From: Enterobacter sp. R1(2018)
GTDB taxonomy: Bacteria; Pseudomonadota; Gammaproteobacteria; Enterobacterales; Enterobacteriaceae
Length of the DNA: 50,897 nucleotides
Reading direction: 5' to 3'
Assembly: GCF_003628475.1 (NCBI RefSeq)
Contig: NZ_RCAA01000006.1
Location: 171,704-222,600 of the forward strand
Positions within the stretch are counted from its first letter, which is position 1, and every line of letters begins with the position of its first letter. Made by a program: the position numbers and the translations under genes. Shown here piece by piece: positions 24,080 to 36,090 of the stretch. The notes under the pieces were generated by a model that was not told where the DNA came from, did not search any database, and saw only the letters and a program-made list of their open reading frames with translations.

Positions 24080-26659
24080 TTACACCAGACTCTTCAGACG
24101 ATAAATCCACTCCAGCGCCTGACGTGGCGACAGAGAGTCCGGATCTAATGCTTCCAGCGCCTCTACCGCAGGCGAGGTTTCCTCTGCGACGGACAGTAAC
24201 GACATCTGCGTACCGTCCACCTGGGTAGCCGCCGTGTTGCTGGAAACCGTCTCAAGCTCCCGCAGCTTCTGCCGCGCGCGTTTAATCACGTCTTTTGGCA
24301 CGCCCGCCAGCGCGGCAACGGCCAGGCCGTAGCTTTTACTCGCCGCGCCATCCTGAACGGTGTGCATAAAGGCGATAGTATCGCCGTGCTCAAGCGCGTC
24401 CAGGTGCACGTTTGCCACGCCCTCCATTTTCTCCGGCAGCGTGGTGAGTTCGAAATAGTGCGTAGCAAACAGCGTCAGCGCTTTAATGCGGTTCGCGAGG
24501 CTTTCAGCACAGGCCCATGCCAGCGACAGGCCGTCATAAGTAGATGTGCCGCGTCCGATCTCATCCATCAGCACCAGGCTGTGCTCCGTGGCGTTGTGCA
24601 GGATATTAGCGGTTTCGGTCATCTCCACCATAAAGGTCGAGCGGCCGGAGGCCAGATCGTCCGCCGCGCCTACGCGGGTAAAAATACGATCTATCGGCCC
24701 GATTTCCGCCTGCTGCGCCGGCACAAAGCTGCCGATATAGGCGAGCAGTACGATCAAAGCAGACTGGCGCATATAGGTACTTTTACCGCCCATGTTCGGG
24801 CCGGTAATAATCAGCATCCGGCGCTGCGGCGCAAGGGTCAACGGGTTGGCGATAAACGGCTCGCTCAGCACTTTCTCAACTACCGGATGGCGGCCGCCGA
24901 CCACCTTGATGCCGGGTTTATCGGTAAGCTGTGGGCAGGTGTAATTCAGGGAATACGCGCGTTCAGCGAGGTTCACCAGCACGTCTAATTCCGCCAGCGC
25001 GGTAGCGCTGTTTTGCAGCGCTTCAAGATGCGGCAGCAGCATGTCAAAGAGCTGGTCGTAGAGCTGTTTCTCAAGCGCCAGCGCTTTACCTTTCGAGGTC
25101 AGAACTTTATCTTCATACTCTTTCAGTTCCGGAATAATGTAACGCTCGGCGTTTTTCAGCGTTTGGCGGCGAACATAGTGGATAGGCGCATGCTGGCTCT
25201 GACCGCGGCTGATCTGAATGTAGTAGCCGTGCACGGCGTTATAGCCGACCTTCAGCGTATCCAGCCCCAGCTTTTCACGTTCGCGAATTTCCAGCCTGTC
25301 CAGGTAATCCGTGGCGCCATCCGCCAGCGAGCGCCACTCGTCCAGCTCTTCGTTGTAGCCTGGAGCAATTACACCGCCATCGCGCACCAGGACAGGCGGG
25401 GATTCGATAACCGCACGTTCAAGCAGCTCGCGCAGCTCGGTGAATTCGCCCATCTTTTCACGCAGCGTTTGCACATAATCCGTCGGCACATCGGCCAGCA
25501 TTTCGCGTAGTTCAGGCAGCTGCTGGAAAGCGTAACGCATGCGCGCCAAATCACGCGGACGCGCGGTACGTAGCGCAAGACGCGCAAGTATACGTTCCAG
25601 ATCGCCCACCTGGCGCAGCACCGGCTGAATTTCCGCCGTTCTGTCCTGCAGCGCAGCGATGGTCTGCTGACGCTTTTGCAGCGTATCGACATTACGAATC
25701 GGCATATGCAACCAGCGTTTCAGCATGCGGCTGCCCATGGGCGTCACCGTGCAGTCCAGCACCGAGGCCAGCGTATTTTCGAAACCGCCAGCCAGATTCT
25801 GGGTGATCTCCAGGTTACGGCGCGTGGCGGCATCCATAATGATGCTGTCCTGCTGCTTGTCCATGGTGACGGAGCGGATATGAGGCAGGGAAGTGCGCTG
25901 GGTATCTTTCACATACTGCAGCAAACAGCCCGCAGCGCACAGGGCGCGATGGGCGTTTTCGACGCCAAAACCGGTTAAATCGCGGGTGCCAAACTGCATA
26001 TTCAGCTGCTGACGCGCCGTTTCGATTTCGAACTCCCAAAGCGGGCGACGGCGCAGGCCGCGGCGGCCTTCAATCAGGCGCGTCCCGGCAAAATCTTCGG
26101 CATACAGCAGTTCGGCAGGATTGGTACGCTGCAGCTCGGCTGCCATGGTTTCCGCATCTTCCGGTTCGCTAAGGCGAAAACGGCCAGAGCTGATGTCCAG
26201 CGTCGCGTAGCCGAAACCTTTGCCGTCCTGCCAGATGGCGGCCAGCAGGTTATCCTGGCGCTCCTGCAGCAGCGCTTCATCGCTGATGGTGCCGGGCGTA
26301 ACGATGCGCACAACTTTACGTTCTACCGGGCCTTTGCTGGTGGCGGGATCGCCAATCTGTTCGCAGATAGCCGCGGATTCACCCAGATTAACCAGCTTCG
26401 CCAGATAGTTTTCCACAGCATGATGCGGCACGCCCGCCATCGGGATGGGTTCGCCGGCGGAAGCGCCGCGTTTGGTCAGGGAGATGTCGAGCAGCTGCGA
26501 CGCGCGTTTCGCGTCGTCATAAAACAGCTCGTAAAAGTCGCCCATACGGTAAAAAAGCAGGATCTCAGGATGCTGCGCCTTCAGGCGCAGATACTGCTGC
26601 ATCATGGGGGTGTGGGAATCTAAATTTATATTGTCAGCCATAGATTTAATCTTAGTCAT
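24080..26659 (-). CDS. mutS: DNA mismatch repair protein MutS
   Basis: 859 aa from ATG 26659, or 853 aa (the E. coli length) from the internal ATG 26641. AAGGA lies just before 26659 and nothing precedes 26641, so the longer start is chosen. The mismatch-binding Phe-x-Glu is in [16 protein letters not shown], the ATPase P-loop is [13 protein letters not shown] and the signature region [13 protein letters not shown]. It recognises base mismatches and recruits MutL. Intact, so no hypermutator phenotype is predicted from it. rpoS and mutS are direct neighbours here, without the ygb genes and pphB found between them in E. coli K-12. Confidence 0.97.
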
Positions 26660-27290
26660 CCATTCCTTTCTCTCCCGCTATACTAGCCCAGCGACTGATA
26701 AGCTGTCACAGGTAAAAATTGGAAGCTTGCCGCAAATTTTGCTTGCGATACCAGGGGCAAAGTTGCAGGAGTTAAAGCAAATCTGGAATGAAGAACATAG
26801 CCTCGCCAGCGAACCAGAAGAGGAGAAACAAGCAAGTATGGTAAATGGGCCAAACGGCTGCGTTGACTGACGAAAGTTGGGGATCTTATATCAAAATATA
26901 TTACTCCCGTAAAAATTGAGCGCGGCCTTAGCCCGGTGACATTTGGAGTGTGATTAAATGGCGAATACGGGTGTCTTTGTAATTAAATGTTATAACAAGC
27001 AAATATATTAAACAGGTGGCGTGGTAAGAGCCCTGAACACCTGTTATGAATAAAATGGTTATCAATAAGTAATGAGGTCTGGCTTAGGCAAATAACCTGA
27101 CATACGGCCTGGCCGTGACAGGGTAAACAATGCTGCAAATAGTAGCGCAATAGAATTTTTTCCGTTGTTAATAATTCTTGTTATCAGATATGAATTTTTT
27201 AATAAGCTCCCAATGTGACTCTCTTATTTTACAATGAATATCAAATTAATAATGTCTTTGTAAGTGATATATATTTGTTCAGAGATGTCA
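26660..27290. other. Long gene-poor AT-rich spacer upstream of mutS
   Basis: 631 bases with no convincing gene. At 26690-26870 an open plus-strand frame (KLSQVKIGSLPQILLAIPG... ending in a stop at 26870) has a protein-like look but no supported start and no recognised family, so it may be a gene remnant. An inverted repeat AACAGGTG (27011-27018)/CACCTGTT (27038-27045) has a 19-base loop and no T-run. The rest is AT-rich. It marks the edge of the idn island. Confidence 0.4.
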
Positions 27291-27764
27291 TCAAAATGAT
27301 GGCGCTTTGATTTTTATAACTGCTTTTCTCAGCATATAGCAAACATCTAAGCTGCAGGCAGGCTTATGCCATTCGCCAGGATAGAAGATAACTAGCCCAC
27401 CCGGAGGTATAGTAAACCACGTTTCAGCATATTTTTCATGTGGCTCGGCAAAACCAATATCTTTGTCAGTATCAAAGGGGGCAATAATCGTCATTCTGCT
27501 TTTCCCATTAATATACCCCAAAACTTCTGGTCCACTTAATGGAATATGAATATCGATATAATTCTGATGCACTTCATATGGTTTTGCTGGAGGGTGGGAA
27601 AGCTCTCTGTCCATTATCTTAATAATGACCTCGTCATGTATTAAGGGATATTCACCAGGTTCCAGGGAAAAAAGATCAACGGCCAGAATGCGATCGATAC
27701 TCTCTAGTAAATCCTGTCTAAGCCCGACGTGCTGTCTAATTGTTTGAAGAGAATCAATAAGCAT
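27291..27764 (-). CDS. YhcH/YjgK/YiaL (NanQ-type) cupin-like protein
   Basis: 157 aa of the DUF386 family. The family motifs are present: HQNYIDIHIPLSG with metal-ligand His, a central acidic patch, and the late FYPGEWHKPAC with the second His. The best studied member, E. coli NanQ (YhcH), is a sialic-acid anomerase encoded beside nanT. Here the gene is last in the minus-strand idn cluster, about 80 bases after the RraA-like gene. Inferred role: interconverting anomers or cyclic forms of an imported sugar acid. Family confident, substrate unknown. Confidence 0.8.
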   Translation of the reverse strand: MLIDSLQTIRQHVGLRQDLLESIDRILAVDLFSLEPGEYPLIHDEVIIKIMDRELSHPPAKPYEVHQNYIDIHIPLSGPEVLGYINGKSRMTIIAPFDTDKDIGFAEPHEKYAETWFTIPPGGLVIFYPGEWHKPACSLDVCYMLRKAVIKIKAPSF

Positions 27765-27846
27765 AATACTACCCCATTACAATATAGGACATAGGGGCGA
27801 TCCGGAGATCAACCCCTGTCTTTTTTGGTTAGCGAAAAAGCATTAC

Positions 27847-28542
27847 TTAAAAGTAAACGTCATCAATAACGTCGACGTTTTTGGTAGCAAACAGCTTGTC
27901 AATCCATGTACGTTCAAGCGCACCTGTTTTTGCCAGTTCAAAATTGCGTTCATCAATAATTAAATATTGCTGCGCTTCTTCCAAAATTCTTGCCGCATCC
28001 AGCCGCGGAATAATAATGACGCCATCCGAGTCACCCAGAATAATGTCACCAGGGCAGACATGAATTTTACCACAGGAAATCGGTACATTAATTTCACCCG
28101 GACCGTCCTTAAACGGGCCTCCCGGAGTATGACCAACCGCATATAGCGGGAAAGTCATTTTGGATATGCCTTCAATATCACGAATTGGAGCATCAAGAAC
28201 AATGCCCTCAATGCCACGATATTGTGCGTAGGTGGTCATTACCTCACCCATCAAAGATTGACTGCGGTCGCCTTCATTCGACACGACAATCACATCATCT
28301 TTACCTGCGATATCCATAGCCTTATGCAGCATTAAATTATCGCCGGAGCGGGCTTTAACCGTAACGGCCAGACCACACATGATCGGTTTCTTGGGCGAGC
28401 TCATCAATTTAATTTCTGATGATAGCGCTGGCAGACGGCTCATACAGTCCGCCACAACGGCTGCAGGTAACTGACGAAAAGCTTCGAGATAGGGTAAAGC
28501 ATCCTGCGGTTTTTTCAAAAATACACGATTACCAATTGCCAT
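27847..28542 (-). CDS. RraA/HMG-CHA aldolase family protein
   Basis: 231 aa with the RraA-like fold signature. GEVMTTYAQYRG is followed by the conserved Asp and Arg-Asp pair in IVLDAPIRDIEG, and GDIILGDSDGVIIIP near the C-terminus. Catalytic relatives cleave pyruvate-releasing 4-hydroxy-2-oxo acids, while RraA itself inhibits RNase E. The RD motif and sugar-acid context favour the enzymatic class (aldolase or decarboxylase). GAGGA precedes the ATG, with 23 bases to the transporter gene upstream. Not a component of known idn operons; its reaction here is unknown. Confidence 0.75.
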   Translation of the reverse strand: MAIGNRVFLKKPQDALPYLEAFRQLPAAVVADCMSRLPALSSEIKLMSSPKKPIMCGLAVTVKARSGDNLMLHKAMDIAGKDDVIVVSNEGDRSQSLMGEVMTTYAQYRGIEGIVLDAPIRDIEGISKMTFPLYAVGHTPGGPFKDGPGEINVPISCGKIHVCPGDIILGDSDGVIIIPRLDAARILEEAQQYLIIDERNFELAKTGALERTWIDKLFATKNVDVIDDVYF

Positions 28543-28565
28543 TTTTTATTCCTCGAATTCATTAA

Positions 28566-30074
28566 TTACTTGTGCAAATTTTCCGCCAGGGCAATTTGCT
28601 CCGGTGTAGTTTTTTTCGTAAATGCGCCTTGTAACGGCGTACCATCAACGGCATCGTAATAACGTACTGCTTCTGGTTTAATCCAGCGCTGGAATCGGGA
28701 CGGCATATCCAGTCCGATGAGTAAAATAACCACAAATGTCAGACTAAATGACAGTCCACTGAGCGCGGTTCCCAGGCTGAAATTTTGGGCGATAGATGCG
28801 CCTAACACTGGCGCCAGCGCCCCTCCCATTGATCCAATGTTATAGATAAAGCCCAGGTTGGCTGCGCGCTGGTCGGTATCAAAATAGCCGCTGATTAATT
28901 TCGCCAGCAGGCCGCCGACTCCCTGACTGAACATTTGTTGCAAGAAAATCAGGACGCATAACAGCCAGACACTGCCGCCAGTAAGAGCAAATACGGGGAT
29001 AATAATGACTTGTGCTATTAGTAAGCTAAGGACATAGGTTTTACGTGTGCCGAGATAATCTCCCGCTATACCCGCGAAACAACAACCCAACCCCATCCCC
29101 AGACGACTGAATGAGAATACCAGCGCGACAGTTTCGGGCGTATAATGCAGCTCGGTTTTTAAATAAGTTGGTAATAATGCATGAATAGGCCAGCCGTATA
29201 AAAAGACGCATAGAATAATGACAGTTAGCATCAGACTGGTAGGCCATCTTTTCCCGCCGCTTTGGATAAGGAATGAAATGAAAATTAACGCAGCGATCAC
29301 ACCTAATACTGCAACCAGGGCCGTAGGTCTACTATGATCGAAGCAGAAATAGAGCGCGACGGCAGCGACTATCGACATCACTATATTCATTGAGCTTTTA
29401 GCCGTATTACCATTACGATATAAAAGATCAACCATGGTAAATACAGGTTTCGTGTCTTTAGCCCGATTCTTTGCCCATTCTTCAGCTTCTGGTATGGCCC
29501 GGCGTAGCCATAATGCGTACATAATAGGAATTATGCCGACATAAAACAGTACACGCCAGCCCCATAAAGGCACGATTATGCTATATGCCAATACAGAAAG
29601 AATCGCTCCTGCGGAGAAGCCTGAGTTGAGAAATGCACTGGCCTTATTACGCATATCCTTCGGCCATGTTTCGATAACATATGCTGAACTGGTGCCGTAT
29701 TCTCCTGCCATCCCGACGCCAACCAGTACCCTGGCGATAAATAACCAAGTGTAATTGGGGGCCAGACCGCAGGCTACTGTACCGCCAGCAAACATAATAA
29801 TACTGGTGATCATGGCACTCTTTCTGCCAAGCCTATCTCCCATGGCACCTAATGCGAGACCGCCAAACCAACGTAAAATAAATGCTGCGGAGACTAAGCC
29901 AGCGGCTTCAATAGTAGGAATATTAAACTCCGCCATTATTTCTGTTAATACCAGAGTGATAATGACAAAATCAAAACCATCCAGCATATAGCCGATCCAC
30001 GCCGCCCAGAATGCTTTCCATTGTGGGCGCGTAATTCTTCGGCTCCAGTGTAAGGACGAGGACTGATTGTTCAT
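28566..30074 (-). CDS. MFS transporter, NanT-like (sialate/sugar-acid:H+ symporter family)
   Basis: 502 aa with about 12-14 membrane segments. MFS motif A appears as [12 protein letters not shown] after the second helix. The sequence follows E. coli NanT along its length, including the N-terminal [18 protein letters not shown] and the C-terminal [11 protein letters not shown]. It occupies the place that idnT (GntP family) holds in E. coli idn operons, so the likely cargo is L-idonate, a ketogluconate or a related acid rather than sialate. GAGG precedes ATG 30074. It lies 44 bases downstream of the dehydrogenase gene. Family strong, substrate inferred. Confidence 0.82.
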
Positions 30075-30118
30075 GGTTTACCTCATGACATTTACGGTCA
30101 ATAAATATTTAAAATATA

Positions 30119-31072
30119 TTAATGTAAGTGAAGGTCAGTAATTGCTTTTCCTGTCGTAAAATAGTGATCGAGATTATCGAAAACATTTTTCGCCATTTCC
30201 TGGCGAGTTTCAAATGTTGCACTGGCGATGTGTGGCGTAAGTATTACGTTCTCCATAGGTAAAAAAGCATTGTTAATTTTTGGCTCATCCTCATAAACAT
30301 CAAGCGCTGCAGATTTAATAATCCCTGATTGCAATGCTTCAATTAAGTCAACTTCATTAACTAATGCACCGCGCGCAATGTTAATAAGCGATCCATGCTC
30401 ACCCAATGCACGTAATATATTAAGGTTGATAACCCCTTTGTTTTGATCGCCACCGGGTATTGCTAATACCAGGAAATCGGAGAAATCAGCCAGGTCAATT
30501 AGATTGGAGAAATATTGATAATCAACGTTACTAATTTTTTTACTGTCACAATAGCCAATATCCATATCAAAGGCATGAGCTCTTTTAGCAATAGCTTTGC
30601 CAATTTTACCTAACCCGAGAATACCAATTTTTTTACCAGTCAACTTACTTGCTAATCGAGGTGGGGTAGTTAACCATTTTCCACTGCGAGCAAATTTATC
30701 CTGATATTGCAAGTCGCGTGATAGCGCCATAATAAATGTTAAAGCCAGATCCGCGACATCCGCCGTGAGAATATCTGAGGTGATAGTAACTTTGATATTA
30801 CGCTCTGCCGCTTTAACCAGATCAATACCATCAGTTCCCACGCCAAATACTGAAATTATTTCAAGGTTGGGTAATTTTTCCATTATGTCAGATGAAAGAC
30901 CAACATCACCCCGCGTTGCCACACCGCGAATCTTGTCGCCATGAAGTTTTAAATAGCTATCAATATCTTCACACTGATATAAATTATGACAAATAAAACG
31001 ATTAGCAATTTTCTTCGCCAATCCTTCCATTAATGGTTGTATAACAAGTATATGAATAGCCTGGTCGTTCAT
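30119..31072 (-). CDS. D-isomer-specific 2-hydroxyacid dehydrogenase (2-ketoaldonate reductase-like)
   Basis: 317 aa. The nucleotide-binding GILGLGKIGKAIAKR is at about residue 145. Catalytic Arg is in NIARGALVNE, Glu in the DVYEDEP region and His in TPHIAS, so the enzyme looks complete. GhrB/TkrA-like relatives reduce 2-keto-D-gluconate, 2-keto-L-gulonate and 2,5-diketogluconate with NAD(P)H. ATG 31072 (MNDQAIH) is preferred to the far upstream 31165 because AAAGAGA precedes it and the extension would run into idnR. Between idnR and the transporter. Inferred role: 2-keto-L-gulonate to L-idonate, feeding IdnD. Confidence 0.8.
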   Translation of the reverse strand: MNDQAIHILVIQPLMEGLAKKIANRFICHNLYQCEDIDSYLKLHGDKIRGVATRGDVGLSSDIMEKLPNLEIISVFGVGTDGIDLVKAAERNIKVTITSDILTADVADLALTFIMALSRDLQYQDKFARSGKWLTTPPRLASKLTGKKIGILGLGKIGKAIAKRAHAFDMDIGYCDSKKISNVDYQYFSNLIDLADFSDFLVLAIPGGDQNKGVINLNILRALGEHGSLINIARGALVNEVDLIEALQSGIIKSAALDVYEDEPKINNAFLPMENVILTPHIASATFETRQEMAKNVFDNLDHYFTTGKAITDLHLH

Positions 31073-31100
31073 AATTATCTCTTTGATGTTGAATGATGAT

Positions 31101-32093
31101 TTAAATGGTTTCGCCGCTGAAAATCTTAAACCCCAGATCAAAACTTTTAATGTGATGCGTACCATTCATTTTGTTAATAATCACTTCTGCCGATTTTTTG
31201 CCAATTTCAAATCGTGGAGTGATTACGCTTGCCAGCGTAGGAGTTACTGCTTTACCAATATCAAGACCATGAAAACCAGCAATAGCCATATCTTGCGGAA
31301 CACGAATTCCAAGCCGTAAACATTCCTGTAAGGCACCTACAGCGATATCATCATTAGTACAGAATATCCCGTCTGGCTTCCTTTCTTCACGCAGTACTAC
31401 CTTAAGCATGGTAGCGCCGAGAGAAAAAGACGAAATGCTGTTTGGTGTCATGCGGCGCGGAGGCAGGTTGTATTCCTGCATCGCCGTGCGATAACCCATA
31501 TATCGTTGATTATCACGTTGATCATTCCGTGAACCAAAATAATAGATGTTACGCTTGCCACTGGTAATCATCATATTCACCATATGGTATGCAGCTAATT
31601 TATTATCGAAGCCGATTTCGATATCTAATTGCGAATCAAGCGTGTCCATGATTTCAATAACCGGAATCTTTTGCGATCGTAAGTAACTTTGTGCGCGTAA
31701 CGTATGGTTTTTTTCACATAGCACCAGTCCCTCAATATCATAAGAAAGCAAATTGAGAATCTGTTTTTCCTCTTTTTCACGAGAATAATTATATTCCGAG
31801 ATTAAAAGCTGATAGCCATGCTGATTGGTAACAAACTCCAGCCCGGATAAAATGTCAGAAAATACTTGATTCTGAAATGAAGGGATCAGTACGCCTATAG
31901 AATTACTTTTTGCGCTCGCCATCATATTAGGCGCACGACTGGGCACATAATTCATTTCATCAAGAATTTCTGCTATTTTGATTCTTGTATCCGATGCCAC
32001 TTTTCTGGAATCGCGTAAATATCGGCTTACTGTCATTTTGCTGACACCAGCAAGACTGGCAATATCTTGTAAACTGATCCGATTATTACGCAT
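31101..32093 (-). CDS. idnR: LacI-family regulator, IdnR-like
   Basis: 330 aa. The N-terminal LacI helix-turn-helix (ISLQDIASLAGVSKMTVSRYL, residues 6-26) is followed by a periplasmic-binding-protein-like sensor domain. It resembles E. coli IdnR along its length, for example GILIPSFQNQ-type and LASVITPRF segments. E. coli IdnR with its inducer activates the idn genes and can repress gntKU. The gene lies within the operon after idnO, as the regulator does in other idn loci. GAAGG precedes the ATG. It probably binds the palindrome at 34051-34062. Confidence 0.85.
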   Translation of the reverse strand: MRNNRISLQDIASLAGVSKMTVSRYLRDSRKVASDTRIKIAEILDEMNYVPSRAPNMMASAKSNSIGVLIPSFQNQVFSDILSGLEFVTNQHGYQLLISEYNYSREKEEKQILNLLSYDIEGLVLCEKNHTLRAQSYLRSQKIPVIEIMDTLDSQLDIEIGFDNKLAAYHMVNMMITSGKRNIYYFGSRNDQRDNQRYMGYRTAMQEYNLPPRRMTPNSISSFSLGATMLKVVLREERKPDGIFCTNDDIAVGALQECLRLGIRVPQDMAIAGFHGLDIGKAVTPTLASVITPRFEIGKKSAEVIINKMNGTHHIKSFDLGFKIFSGETI

Positions 32094-32130
32094 GTTCTAC
32101 CTTCAATTTCGTTTTATTATGAATATATAG

Positions 32131-32895
32131 TTAGACTGCGACTAACATTCCGCCGTCAACAAACAGTAGATGACCATTTACAAAATCGGATGCTTTTGAC
32201 GAAAGAAATACGGCCGCGCCGATCAATTCTTCTGGGTTTCCCCAGCGTGCCGCTGGAGTACGTTTACATAACCAGTCGGTAAACTCACGATTGTCTACCA
32301 AAGCCTTTGTCATTTCAGTTTTGAAATAGCCGGGTGCAATGCCATTAACCTGAATATTATGGCGGGCAAGCTCAACACACATACCACGCGTGAGCATTTT
32401 GACTGCCCCTTTCGATGCGGCATAAGGCGTAATAGTATCTCGGCCCAATTCACTTTGCATGGAACAGATATTGATCACTTTTCCGGCCTTACGTTCAACC
32501 ATGCGACGAGTGACCGCCTGCGATACCAGAAAAACTGCGGTCTGGTTTACAGCAATAACATCATTCCACTCCTGTTCCGGGAATTCATTGAACGGGTGGC
32601 GACGTTGAATACCAGCATTATTTACCAGCACGTCAATAGGGCCTACTTGCTCTTCAATACTTGCAATGGCGGTATCAATTTCAGTTTTTTGGGTCACATT
32701 AAACGGCGCAGTTACGGCGCGAATATCTGCAGCGCGCAGCTTATCGACGGCAGCGTTGGCCTTTTCCTGATTAATATCATTAACGATAATTTGCGCGCCG
32801 TACTTTCCAAGACCTGTTGCCAACAGATAACCAATACCCTGTGCGGAGCCGGTAATCAGCACATTCTTACCTGCCAAAGAAAAGAGATCATTCAT
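32131..32895 (-). CDS. idnO: Gluconate 5-dehydrogenase (5-keto-D-gluconate 5-reductase)
   Basis: 254 aa short-chain dehydrogenase, close to E. coli IdnO over its whole length (LFSLAGKNVLITGSAQGIG at the start, FVDGGMLVAV at the end). The NAD(P) motif is TGSAQGIG, and the catalytic Ser and Tyr-x3-Lys appear in ICSMQSE and PYAASKGAVK. It reduces 5-ketogluconate to D-gluconate. AAGGA precedes the ATG; 24 bases from idnD. Confidence 0.93.
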   Translation of the reverse strand: MNDLFSLAGKNVLITGSAQGIGYLLATGLGKYGAQIIVNDINQEKANAAVDKLRAADIRAVTAPFNVTQKTEIDTAIASIEEQVGPIDVLVNNAGIQRRHPFNEFPEQEWNDVIAVNQTAVFLVSQAVTRRMVERKAGKVINICSMQSELGRDTITPYAASKGAVKMLTRGMCVELARHNIQVNGIAPGYFKTEMTKALVDNREFTDWLCKRTPAARWGNPEELIGAAVFLSSKASDFVNGHLLFVDGGMLVAV

Positions 32896-32919
32896 TGTTT
32901 TGTTCCTTATCCTATTACA

Positions 32920-33951
32920 TTAAAAAACGAGCTGAACTTTAGCAGCCTTGGTTTTATCACCCGCGAATTCCAGCGCCTGCTCAAGCTCGGTAAAGGAGTA
33001 TTCACCACTTAGCAGAGGCAATGGATTCACTACGCCGTTTGCCAGCCAGGAGACGGCTGTATCGAACTCGGTGGTAAACCGGAATGAGCCTTTCAGACTA
33101 ATTTCTTTGGCAATCAGCATCATCATTGGGAAGTCGGGCACCGTCCCCCCCATGCCCACTTGTACCATCACCCCTTTGGCTTGGGTGACTTCAAGACAGG
33201 TATGGATCGAAGTGGGGTTGCCAGAAACTTCAAAGCTGATATCGAAATAACCTTTTTCAGCTTTCCATGGCGTTAAGTCGGCGTTACGAGGATCGATAAG
33301 CGTATCTGCCCCCATTTTCTGAGCCAGATCCAGCGAACGCGGACTAATATCTGCACAGACGATTTCTGCTGCACCTAAGGTTTTCACCGCACTGACAATC
33401 AGGCAGCCAATAGGACCGACACCGGAAATAAAGACACGTTTTCCTTGTAAATTACCAGCCTGGTGAGCGGCGTGGATAGCTACTGCCAGCGGCTCGGCAA
33501 AAGCCATTGTTTTGGCATTCGCATCCGCAGAAAAAGGGATACATTGCGCATTGTCCACCACTTTAAAGCGAGTAAAACCGCCATCAACGTGTGGGAAATA
33601 CATGGCGCTTCCAAAAAATCGCATTTCAGTACATTGGTTTTCATTATGTGCCAGACAATATTTACAATGACCACATGGTTTTGAAGGATTAATGGCAACC
33701 GTCTGGCCAATTTGTAATTTTTCAGAATCTGTCTGGACGATTTTACCGATCACTTCATGGCCTAAAATCATCGGTGCTTTAACAGAAAAATTACCTACTT
33801 TACCTTCCTGATAATAATGCAGGTCGGAGCCGCAAATACCACCACGTGTTATTTGTACCAGCGTTCCTTTATTATTCCATTCAATTTCCTGGGCGGTAAC
33901 GTCAACACTTTTTTTGCCTGCTACAACGCAGGATTGGGTTTTAATCTTCAT
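32920..33951 (-). CDS. idnD: L-idonate 5-dehydrogenase
   Basis: 343 aa zinc-dependent medium-chain dehydrogenase, clearly orthologous to E. coli IdnD. The catalytic zinc site is GGICGSDLHYYQEG with GHEVIG. The structural zinc cysteines are in PSKPCGHCKYCLAHNENQC, and the NAD-binding region is ISGVGPIGCLIV. It oxidises L-idonate to 5-ketogluconate. First gene of the minus-strand operon, divergent from idnK across 214 bases carrying CRP and IdnR-type sites. Confidence 0.94.
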   Translation of the reverse strand: MKIKTQSCVVAGKKSVDVTAQEIEWNNKGTLVQITRGGICGSDLHYYQEGKVGNFSVKAPMILGHEVIGKIVQTDSEKLQIGQTVAINPSKPCGHCKYCLAHNENQCTEMRFFGSAMYFPHVDGGFTRFKVVDNAQCIPFSADANAKTMAFAEPLAVAIHAAHQAGNLQGKRVFISGVGPIGCLIVSAVKTLGAAEIVCADISPRSLDLAQKMGADTLIDPRNADLTPWKAEKGYFDISFEVSGNPTSIHTCLEVTQAKGVMVQVGMGGTVPDFPMMMLIAKEISLKGSFRFTTEFDTAVSWLANGVVNPLPLLSGEYSFTELEQALEFAGDKTKAAKVQLVF

Positions 33952-34011
33952 ATTTTCTCTTCGGTCAGGATATGGCGTAGAAGGATTTAAGCGTTTTTTT
34001 TAGCGTAGAAT

Positions 34012-34027
34012 TGTGACTTGGGTCACA
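34012..34027. promoter_or_regulatory. CRP-cAMP binding site in the idnD-idnK region
   Basis: TGTGACTTGGGTCACA has both perfect half-sites TGTGA and TCACA with the canonical 6-base spacer. It lies about 60 bases upstream of the idnD ATG on one side and of the idnK -10 on the other, suitable to activate both. Known idn and gnt genes are catabolite-controlled. Confidence 0.85.
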
Positions 34028-34050
34028 TGAAAAAACTGTTACATTGCAGT

Positions 34051-34079
34051 GTTACGCATAACGTGATGCGCACTATAAT
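34051..34079 (+). promoter_or_regulatory. IdnR/GntR-type operator and idnK -10 box
   Basis: GTTACGCATAAC (34051-34062) is a palindrome with one mismatched pair and resembles the gluconate-family operator core (GTTAC...GTAAC). TATAAT at 34074-34079 is a perfect -10 for idnK, and the palindrome overlaps where its -35 would be. Regulator assignment is inferred from the neighbouring idnR. Confidence 0.65.
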
Positions 34080-34165
34080 TTTGTTCAATTGGCGAAAAAA
34101 AAAGTAAACCTCCTTTCTGACGCAGAGTATTATCCGCCGAATTAAAATTAACAGAGGTAGGTTAA

Positions 34166-34696
34166 ATGAACGGAGAAAGTTATATTTTAATGGGCGTATC
34201 AGGTAGCGGAAAATCTCTGGTGGGTAGTAAAGCAGCAGCATTACTCTCTGCAAAATTTATTGATGGCGACGATCTGCATCCTGCAAAAAATATTGATAAA
34301 ATGTCTGCCGGCATTCCATTAACTGATGAAGACAGAATACCCTGGCTGCAACGATTAAATGATGTCTCTTACAGCCTTTATAAAAAGAATGAAACCGGTT
34401 TGATTGTTTGTTCCGCATTAAAAAAAAGCTATCGCGAATTTTTACGCAAAGGCAGCCCTAACGTCCGTTTTCTATGGCTTGATGGCAATTACGATACGAT
34501 TTTAGCCAGACTACAAAAACGGAAGGGCCATTTCATGCCAGTTGAGTTACTGAAAAGTCAGTTTGCCGCTCTCCAGTGTCCGGAAGGCGAAAAAGACGTC
34601 CTGCGCATTGATATTAACCATGACATTAATAATGTTGTTGACCAGTGTGTACAGGCTGTTGTGCTGATGCGAAGTGAAAATGCGTGTCATAATTAA
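34166..34696 (+). CDS. idnK: Thermosensitive-type gluconokinase IdnK
   Basis: 176 aa. It phosphorylates D-gluconate to 6-phosphogluconate for the Entner-Doudoroff or pentose phosphate route. The P-loop is GVSGSGKS at about residue 10, followed by FIDGDDLHPAKNIDKM, which is typical of the GntK/IdnK family. The sequence follows E. coli IdnK closely, including YSLYKKNETG, and differs more from GntK. AGAGG precedes ATG 34166. It is divergent from idnD as in E. coli and completes the pathway. Confidence 0.9.
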   Translation: MNGESYILMGVSGSGKSLVGSKAAALLSAKFIDGDDLHPAKNIDKMSAGIPLTDEDRIPWLQRLNDVSYSLYKKNETGLIVCSALKKSYREFLRKGSPNVRFLWLDGNYDTILARLQKRKGHFMPVELLKSQFAALQCPEGEKDVLRIDINHDINNVVDQCVQAVVLMRSENACHN

Positions 34697-35016
34697 TTGA
34701 ATGGTCCCTGTTTGTGCTTAAAAATAATGTTCTGGCGCTTATTTTCGGGGGCCATTATTAGTGATTTCGAAATTAAAATATCGCGTTCAGGTAAGGTGCT
34801 GTTTTCCTTTTGCAGCGCCGCTTCTATGAAGATTATAAAAACAGGAGTGCCAATTTAGGTAAGCTTGTTGCAATCCGCGTATCGGCAGAGCTGGCGCGTG
34901 GTTCGGATAGCAATAAAAATGTTCCCTCCTCAAGGCCAGAGTCTGTTACCAGCGCTGGGTTTTTGATTTACCATAAGAGCTAACTTTTCTGGTCAGACAT
35001 ACGGACGTTCCAGCAC
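34697..35016. other. Intergenic region between idnK and mltB
   Basis: 320 bases with no convincing gene. No clear terminator follows idnK. The last 30 bases before mltB are AT-rich and may hold its promoter, but no good pair of hexamers stood out. This is the right-hand junction of the AT-rich idn island with the GC-richer backbone. Confidence 0.4.
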
Positions 35017-36090
35017 ATGCGTTACACAGCCGCGTTACTCCCGCTTCTTGTTTTGTTATCCGCCTGTAGCAGCAAACCGAAAACCGAAACGCCAGCCCAG
35101 ACTGCGGGCGCTTCCTCCGGCGGTTTCCTGCTCCAGCCGCAACATGACGTTTTCATGCAGACCGGGGATTTCGCCTATAACCCGGAAGCCGAAAAATTCA
35201 TCGATAAGATGGTGAACAAGCATGGCTTTGACCGCCAGCAGCTGCATGAAGTGCTGTCTCAGGCGAAGAGACTGGATTACGTGCTGCGCTTGATGGACAA
35301 CCAGGCGCCGACTACGGCGCCGCCTGCCGGACCGAACGGCGCATGGTTACGTTATCGCGGGAAGTTTATCACCCCGGATAACGTGCAAAATGGCGTCGTG
35401 TTCTGGAATCAGCATGCTGACGCGCTGAAACGTGCCTTTCAGGTTTACGGCGTGCCGCCGGAAATCATCGTCGGCATTATCGGCGTGGAGACTCGCTGGG
35501 GCCGCGTGATGGGTAAAACCAGAATTATTGACGCCCTGGCGACGCTTTCCTTTGCCTATCCGCGCCGTGCGCAGTATTTCTCCGGCGAGCTGGAAACCTT
35601 CCTGCTGATGGCACGTAATGAAGGCGACGATCCGCTGGCGCTGAAAGGATCTTTCGCGGGCGCGATGGGCTACGGCCAGTTTATGCCGTCTTCCTTTAAA
35701 GAGTACGCGGTAGATTTTAACGGCGACGGCCACGTGAACCTGTGGGATCCGGAAGACGCCATCGGCAGCGTGGCGAACTACTTTAAAGAGCATGGCTGGG
35801 TAAAAGAGGATCTGGTGGCGGTACCGGCAAATGGCCAGGTGCCGGGGCTGGCGAACGGCTTTAATACAAAATACTCTGTCTCTGCCTTGCAGCAGTCTGG
35901 TTTAAGCCCGCAAGGCTCGCTGGGAAACCATCAGGAAGCCAGCCTGCTGCGTCTGGATATGGGCGATCGCTATCAGTACTGGTACGGCTTGCCAAACTTT
36001 TATGCCATCACTCGCTACAACCACAGCACCCATTATGCGATGGCGGTGTGGCAGCTGGGTCAGGCCGTTGCGCTGGCCCGCGTTCAGTAA
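35017..36090 (+). CDS. mltB: Lytic murein transglycosylase B (lipoprotein)
   Basis: 357 aa outer-membrane lipoprotein that cleaves peptidoglycan between MurNAc and GlcNAc to give 1,6-anhydro ends. Signal peptide and lipobox LLSACSS are at residues 1-19. The catalytic Glu is in GVETRWGR (about residue 160), with GAMGYGQFMPSS and the Ca-binding-like DFNGDGHVNLWDPEDA loop. Length matches the family (361 in E. coli). Ends at a terminator. Confidence 0.95.
   Translation: MRYTAALLPLLVLLSACSSKPKTETPAQTAGASSGGFLLQPQHDVFMQTGDFAYNPEAEKFIDKMVNKHGFDRQQLHEVLSQAKRLDYVLRLMDNQAPTTAPPAGPNGAWLRYRGKFITPDNVQNGVVFWNQHADALKRAFQVYGVPPEIIVGIIGVETRWGRVMGKTRIIDALATLSFAYPRRAQYFSGELETFLLMARNEGDDPLALKGSFAGAMGYGQFMPSSFKEYAVDFNGDGHVNLWDPEDAIGSVANYFKEHGWVKEDLVAVPANGQVPGLANGFNTKYSVSALQQSGLSPQGSLGNHQEASLLRLDMGDRYQYWYGLPNFYAITRYNHSTHYAMAVWQLGQAVALARVQ

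Follow-up and report, generated by a model that had tools for sequence, protein, structure and literature searches.

The closest described counterpart of the locus considered here is the GntII operon of Escherichia coli, in which idnK is divergent from idnDOTR. A related island lies between mutS and mltB in a 50,897-nt stretch of Enterobacter sp. R1(2018) (the window; all coordinates count from its first letter). As in E. coli, idnK is divergent from idnD and idnO, the gap between them is of similar length and holds the same 13-base operator core, and IdnD, IdnO and IdnK are 80%, 88% and 75% identical to their E. coli counterparts. The island differs in that, in place of idnT and the E. coli-type idnR (53% identical), it has an idnR of another lineage together with genes for a D-isomer-specific 2-hydroxyacid dehydrogenase (HADH), a major facilitator superfamily (MFS) transporter, an RraA-like protein and a YhcH-like protein. 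The locus is read here, with a probability of about 0.5, as an idonate operon whose idnT-idnR half was exchanged for a module that imports a 2-keto-aldonate, most likely 2-keto-L-gulonate, and reduces it to L-idonate.

By its proposed reactions, the island can also be likened to the D-glucuronate pathway of Aspergillus niger (gluC/gluD-gluE-gluF), which leads from 2-keto-L-gulonate through L-idonate to 5-keto-D-gluconate. The fungal gluC is described as a D-2-hydroxyacid dehydrogenase that converts 2-keto-L-gulonate to L-idonate, which gluE oxidises to 5-keto-D-gluconate (PMC4870679, PMC5306355), and a fungal 5-ketogluconate reductase takes the next step (PMC5814732). That pathway is fungal, and the passages on it in these papers mention no transporter, RraA or YhcH. 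A bacterial 2-ketogluconate reductase is likewise stated to convert 2-keto-L-gulonate to L-idonate, in a passage that gives a paper on E. coli yiaE as its reference (PMC4870679). Because a bacterial 2-ketoaldonate reductase with this capacity has already been described, the claim of an earlier note on this DNA, that the added reductase makes the route broader than that of E. coli, seems overstated. What would be new is the gene clustering, the exchange of transporter and regulator, and the added RraA and YhcH genes. A search of titles and abstract openings in the literature found no description of this module, from which its absence from print is not claimed.

Gene content of the island

All eight cassette genes are open frames, and each has a family match in profile searches (bits, with cut-offs in parentheses):

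27291..27764, minus strand: YhcH/YjgK/YiaL (DUF386) protein, candidate 2-keto-acid anomerase; PF04074 104 bits (26.5), TIGR00022 86 (45.5)
27847..28542, minus strand: RraA-like protein, probable metal-dependent 2-oxo-acid lyase or isomerase; PF03737 150 bits (24.5)
28566..30074, minus strand: NanT-family MFS transporter, in a clade separate from NanT by tree; NF003024 739 bits (604)
30119..31072, minus strand: HADH, candidate 2-ketoaldonate reductase; PF02826/PF00389, 2-Hacid_dh_C 159 bits (25.1), and tree
31101..32093, minus strand: IdnR-type LacI regulator of the G087/Yersinia lineage; NF047913 537 bits (500), and tree
32131..32895, minus strand: IdnO, 5-keto-D-gluconate reductase of the E. 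coli-type lineage; NF005983 513 bits (408), and tree
32920..33951, minus strand: IdnD, L-idonate 5-dehydrogenase of the E. coli-type lineage; NF007375 651 bits (469), and tree
34166..34696, plus strand: IdnK, gluconokinase; NF007336 315.5 bits (304)

These family matches bear out the arrangement given in the earlier note, with idnK divergent from idnD-idnO-idnR and four further genes on the minus strand. The note's gene set for an island at 26,660-34,696 stands; its lower limit does not, since 26,660-27,290 holds none of the eight genes and the cassette proper spans 27,291-34,696. IdnD, IdnO and IdnK all exceed their curated cut-offs and idnK is divergent, as in an idn (GntII) operon. IdnT is missing from the island, and the two GntP-family genes of the source genome are on contigs C10 and C18, the window being part of C52.

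On the minus strand the genes are read in the order idnD, idnO, idnR, HADH, MFS, RraA-like and YhcH-like. Their spacers are 24, 37, 28, 44, 23 and 82 bases in this order, so that a single transcript of all seven is plausible. The HADH gene most likely starts at 31,072, with an ATG that follows AAGAGATAATT, and not at the mechanical open reading frame start at 31,165, which overlaps idnR. Neither promoter-like sites (18; mean in shuffles 20.2, sd 4.4) nor terminator-like sites (11; mean 8.0, sd 2.9) exceed chance, and 26,500-35,100 has no Rfam match at the gathering threshold. A hairpin in the 82-base spacer between the RraA-like and YhcH-like genes (27765-27846; -22 kcal/mol, z -1.68) is matched by 12 of 200 shuffles and is too weak to be claimed as a control element.

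A mosaic of two operon types

The island appears to join two operon types, a point that the earlier note had missed. In trees, the IdnD and IdnO of the window each fall into a set of six with those of genome G067 and of operons of the E. coli type (support 100/100 and 99/98), and they are 90% and 94% identical to the G067 proteins. IdnR groups with that of genome G087 (100/99; 83% identity) and is 51-53% identical to E. coli-type IdnR. The nucleotide sequence divides in the same place: all 100-base steps over 32,500-34,500 are nearer to G067 (70-89%) than to G087 (53-76%), and all those over 31,100-32,000 are nearer to G087 (70-80%) than to G067 (53-70%). The gap between idnO and idnR is about 1.46 kb in G067, with room for idnT, and in E. 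coli that gap holds idnT. Because the trees and nucleotide steps split at idnO/idnR, and the place of idnT is now taken by the module, five genes (IdnR-type, HADH, MFS, RraA-like and YhcH-like) appear to have taken over from the idnT-idnR half of an operon of the E. coli type. The comparison supports a junction close to the 3′ end of idnO. It does not establish a recombination point inside the gene, since the C-terminal part that looked G087-like proved to be conserved among all six IdnO sequences compared.

Insertion between mutS and mltB

The horizontal acquisition proposed in the earlier note is upheld for the island, which takes up about 8.2 kb between mutS and mltB. It is supported by an empty site in three of five congeners, low GC content and a patchy distribution. 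The synteny and composition comparisons that the note had suggested both came out in favor. Six genomes of the genus, the source genome included, were compared. In G149, G150 and G065 the mutS-mltB gap holds only 183, 341 and 260 unmatched bases, and in the window it holds 8.2-8.3 kb. The distance in G151 is 6.9 kb, with intervening DNA that has no match to the island, and in G152 mutS and mltB are on separate contigs. The latter genome (locus L095) has a frame that by eye looks like a switch protein of type III secretion, its end 2.7 kb short of mltB. The AT-richer block that had been noted is seen gene by gene: island genes have a GC content of 0.38-0.47 and a third-position GC content (GC3) of 0.31-0.47, against 0.57-0.58 and 0.68 for mltB and mutS. 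IdnD (E <= 1e-60) is found in three of the six genomes including the source; the other two copies are 48% and 52% identical and lie on contigs distinct from that of mutS.

A plasmid origin was tried and dropped, as region 26,660-35,016 gave zero megablast matches among 72,556 plasmid records. No direct repeat shared by the flanks (26,560-27,290 and 34,697-35,016) exceeds 9 bases, a length reached in 120 of 200 shuffles. The two tRNA genes detected are not at an island edge but at 44.7-44.9 kb. The eight genes of the island include no integrase, a result that does not extend to its other small frames, which were not searched.

Distribution of the module and a shared operator

Among 149 genomes of the family, the source included, an HADH of more than 50% identity occurs outside the source genome only in G087 (72%). 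This genome, of another genus, carries the complete set of eight in unchanged order, with identities to the window of 92% for MFS, 90% for RraA, 83% for IdnR, 76% for IdnO, 71% for HADH, 68% for IdnK, 61% for IdnD and 54% for YhcH. At the level of the order, RraA at E <= 1e-60 is found in 5 of 394 genomes, again with the source counted. A scan of named genomes for RraA gave 27 loci. Yersinia proxima has IdnD-IdnR-HADH-MFS-RraA-YhcH, with its IdnO and IdnK in a separate cluster, and two Enterobacterales metagenome-assembled genomes (MAGs) have LacI-IdnD-IdnO-IdnR-HADH-MFS-RraA. In Winslowiella the HADH-MFS-RraA trio stands alone, with no IdnD or IdnO match in the 20.7 kb locus. A Pantoea MAG has MFS-RraA. 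In Pantoea coffeiphila and in three Erwinia an HADH is convergent to RraA, and an MFS match is missing. In the remaining 18 of the 27 loci RraA is only 36-44% identical.

The promoter region between idnK and idnD has two putative control sites, assigned by consensus; neither sequence has a second exact match in the window:

34012..34027, strand not assigned: CRP-like perfect palindrome TGTGACTTGGGTCACA
34050..34063, strand not assigned: putative IdnR/GntR-type operator TGTTACGCATAACG

E. coli, G067 and G087 share exactly the first 13 bases of TGTTACGCATAACG. In E. coli, GntR is reported to recognise the IdnR sites at idnK and idnDOTR (PMC4052901, from a passage of that paper). A scan with TGTTAYGCRTAAC in both orientations over 57 sequences (967,301 bases) found 12 sites, spread over 11 sequences. 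In ten first-order Markov simulations the number was 0 nine times and 2 once. At L066:3305 and L068:3309, two of the 12, the match falls on the initiation codon of a LacI gene and may be part of the coding sequence. Ahead of the Winslowiella trio there is one TGTTAYGCRTAAC site, accompanied by a CRP-like site; a distant LacI-type gene (26%) also lies upstream. Because the putative operator of idnK/idnD precedes this trio too, where idnD and idnO are lacking, it would tie HADH, MFS and RraA to idonate/gluconate control, and this is the best independent link between them. The earlier note's connection of the added genes with idonate control is supported by the operator and by the identical gene set in G087.

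IdnO is present in all seven searched genomes that have RraA-HADH loci (best E 2.7e-168 to 5.4e-120), and at E <= 1e-100 in 35 of the 149 family genomes, the source and G087 among them. This comparison is only suggestive, because three of the seven carry IdnO in the cassette itself, the family sample is rich in reduced genomes, and not all seven belong to this family.

A candidate route through L-idonate

The earlier note's route from 2-keto-L-gulonate to 6-phosphogluconate is coherent and, at about even odds, would be the most economical account of these genes. The MFS transporter would import a 2-keto-aldonate, most likely 2-keto-L-gulonate, and the YhcH-like protein would open its ring. HADH would then reduce C2 to give L-idonate, IdnD would oxidise C5 to 5-keto-D-gluconate, IdnO would reduce this to D-gluconate, and IdnK would phosphorylate the product to 6-phosphogluconate. 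IdnR and CRP would control the idnK/idnD promoter region, and the RraA-like protein would act on the same 2-keto acid.

The reductive direction predicted for HADH is consistent with its relatives. The ten module HADHs form one clade (100/99), which is joined (91/89) to a clade of 15; 11 of these are from enterobacterial clusters of the type MFS-HADH-LacI|IdnO-IdnK-YhcH (L040, L042-L050 and the source genome's own L052), and four are others. Like the island, all 11 clusters have HADH and an IdnR-like LacI, ten have IdnO, eight have IdnK and eight have a YhcH match. They differ from it in having no RraA or IdnD match and no TGTTAYGCRTAAC site, and the MFS is of another family in L040, the one tested. 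In L052 (G000:C18:1-12000), a second ketogluconate-like cluster with the order HADH-LacI|IdnO-YhcH and no IdnK match, the HADH is 44% identical to that of the island. A similar HADH-LacI|IdnO cluster in Y. proxima has IdnO at 76% and IdnK at 59%, and an Edd gene is found further along in L042. A 2-keto reductase feeding IdnO and IdnK would make sense in such clusters.

These clusters also bear on the proposal that the module takes 2,5-diketo-D-gluconate or 2-keto-D-gluconate, that HADH makes 5-keto-D-gluconate or gluconate directly, and that IdnD is an inherited idonate companion. The related HADHs do cluster with IdnO and IdnK and with no IdnD match, and Erwinia, Klebsiella and E. coli are described as reducing and then phosphorylating 2-ketogluconate (PMC11837542, in part of that text). 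However, the source genome already owns such a cluster in L052, and idnD has been retained beside the module in the window, G087, Y. proxima, L066 and L068. The proposal is considered unlikely.

Several observations weigh against import and reduction of 2-keto-L-gulonate by an idonate-linked module. By sequence, the closest solved relatives of HADH are hydroxyphenylpyruvate and glyoxylate/hydroxypyruvate reductases, and a "probable 2-ketogluconate reductase" ranks lower; with such relatives the substrate is not readable from sequence. A purely reductive route leaves RraA without a place, which the earlier note had missed. idnD is near a module HADH in only 5 of 10 loci (the window, L039, L064, L066 and L068). 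The Pantoea MAG (L067) has no HADH in the locus with its MFS-RraA, and G378 (L102, one of the five in 394) has an RraA of 77% identity with neither an HADH nor an MFS match in 17 kb. In the four Erwinia and P. coffeiphila loci the idn matches are limited to weak IdnO-like and LacI hits. TGTTAYGCRTAAC is absent from these four loci, from the Pantoea MAG and from the related HADH-LacI|IdnO clusters.

HADH aligns with 3ba1 at Arg, Glu and His positions, which we take to be the active-site residues of the D-2-hydroxyacid dehydrogenase family. Its identification as GhrB itself was rejected (equivalog NF011938, 154.8 bits; cut-off 492).

The RraA-like protein and a possible cleaving route

The RraA-like protein is not the RNase E regulator RraA, as it scores 76.1 bits with NF006875 (cut-off 136) and 39 with TIGR02998 (241.25). 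Its nearest solved protein by sequence is 3noj, a 4-hydroxy-4-methyl-2-oxoglutarate/4-carboxy-4-hydroxy-2-oxoadipate (HMG/CHA) aldolase. The cut-offs of models for named aldolases are not reached (NF006731 130.5, 179; TIGR02798 118.7, 304.5; NF009134 70.5, 196). Residues 100-122 have the pattern E-x20-R-D (E100, R121-D122), with Arg-Asp aligned with 3noj. An acidic residue-x20-Arg-Asp is presumably the motif of HMG/CHA-type class II pyruvate aldolases. Of the 27 scanned loci, 22 have [DE]-x20-R-D (the L082 copy at an apparently over-extended start), and of 9 further loci 4 have it (L039, L113-L115); it is absent from the five of the DASS type (L103-L105, L111, L112).

RraA has a 2-hydroxyacid dehydrogenase no more than 2 kb away in 17 of the 27 loci and in 8 of the 9 further loci, or 8 of 10 if L102, which has none, is counted. 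It should be noted that the nine were picked for holding RraA, that the loci are related by descent and that the count is given without a background rate; of the four dehydrogenase queries, two came from RraA loci and one more from L103. In a tree, some deep joins of which are flagged as unsure, the RraA-adjacent dehydrogenases are spread over several separate lineages. RraA matches occur in 207 plasmid records; five were inspected, and in all but a Rhizobium one the cluster includes a gene annotated as hydroxyacid dehydrogenase. The clusters on Pantoea plasmids and in Alphaproteobacteria resemble the island in that RraA adjoins genes for a 2-hydroxyacid dehydrogenase and for a carboxylate transporter, and differ in that the HADH is of other lineages, the transporter is DASS or TctABC, and no idn gene is annotated there. 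In our reading, the functional coupling of a 2-keto-acid lyase or isomerase (RraA) with a 2-keto-acid reductase is probably real.

Such coupling invites a different assignment. RraA would be a class II lyase cleaving the 2-keto acid after its import, with hydroxypyruvate and glyceraldehyde as the products from a 2-keto-hexonate, and HADH would serve as hydroxypyruvate/glyoxylate reductase. The idn genes, though under the shared regulator and promoter, would belong to a branch of their own. The assignment gains from the frequency and several lineages of the dehydrogenase neighbors, from their pairing with transporters as varied as DASS, TctABC and MFS, from the E-x20-R-D kept in the window protein, and from the hydroxypyruvate type of the best solved relatives of HADH. 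A glycerate 2-kinase-like gene further on in L082 is also in its favor. Among other RraA-family enzymes, FlDet is reported to be a dehydratase/decarboxylase of a 2-keto-3-deoxy sugar acid (PMC8563752), and work on an aldolase of pyruvate aldols states that Arg-123 matters for catalysis (PMC5065237), both as given in parts of these papers. Against it, the neighboring HADH clade sits in IdnO-IdnK clusters at loci with no RraA match, the eight island genes include no glycerate kinase or aldehyde dehydrogenase, and the motif is absent from the five further RraA loci with DASS transporters. A cleaving role of this kind is judged improbable.

RraA-like proteins of this branch may perform an undescribed 2-keto-aldonate step, either a retro-aldol cleavage or, by way of the same enolate, an epimerisation at C3, in an RraA-2-hydroxyacid dehydrogenase-transporter module that recurs joined to various substrates, here to the idonate operon. 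This is a tentative proposal and somewhat doubtful.

The RraA-like gene directly follows an aminotransferase-type frame in P. coffeiphila/Erwinia (L069, L071, L072) and in a Spirochaetales MAG (L083), which suggests that RraA takes a 2-oxo acid. In three of the four Erwinia and P. coffeiphila loci the frame just before rraA belongs to one cluster, and the L069 copy is aspartate-transaminase-like. In the Rhizobiales RraA-HADH cluster at L082:13784-16032, a second 2-hydroxyacid dehydrogenase and the glycerate 2-kinase-like gene follow.

The transporter and the YhcH-like protein

The MFS transporter and the YhcH-like protein could also be taken as a sialic acid accessory locus that serves sialate or a relative of it. 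The transporter is 61.6% identical to an E. coli NanT and scores above the cut-off of one sialate:H+ symport model (NF003024, 739 bits over 604); with TIGR00891 it falls short (445 under 552.9). However, the seven module MFS form a clade (100/100) apart from six nan-locus MFS, one of them on a flagged long branch and one from the source genome, whose own nan locus has matches to NanR, NanA, NanT, NanK and NanQ (NanE was queried and not placed). nanA is above its curated cut-off in two of nine genomes searched; among the five with a module MFS it is present in the source and G528, and below the cut-off or absent in G087, Y. proxima and Winslowiella. Nor is the YhcH-like protein NanQ (equivalog NF040884, 88.7 bits; cut-off 160). 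A sialate role is very improbable.

The anomerase role assigned to the YhcH-like protein in the L-idonate route is a prediction from homology. Its HxxYxD and ExHKP stretches align with HI0227 (1jop). E. coli YhcH is reported to yield the open form of cyclic N-acetylneuraminate (Neu5Ac) and 2-keto-3-deoxynononic acid (KDN), both 2-keto acids (PMC8141875, in the part consulted). Because the NanQ cut-off is not reached, a reasonable guess is that the island protein acts on a different 2-keto acid.

Implications

The locus illustrates how a sugar-acid operon appears to be retargeted by exchange of its transporter-regulator half. With one operon and one promoter region, it offers a concrete setting for the chemistry of RraA-like proteins, which often adjoin 2-hydroxyacid dehydrogenases. 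In the fermentation of vitamin C precursors, loss of 2-keto-L-gulonate to idonate is unwanted. If the reading given here is true, a dedicated bacterial operon for 2-keto-L-gulonate uptake and reduction would bear on that process.

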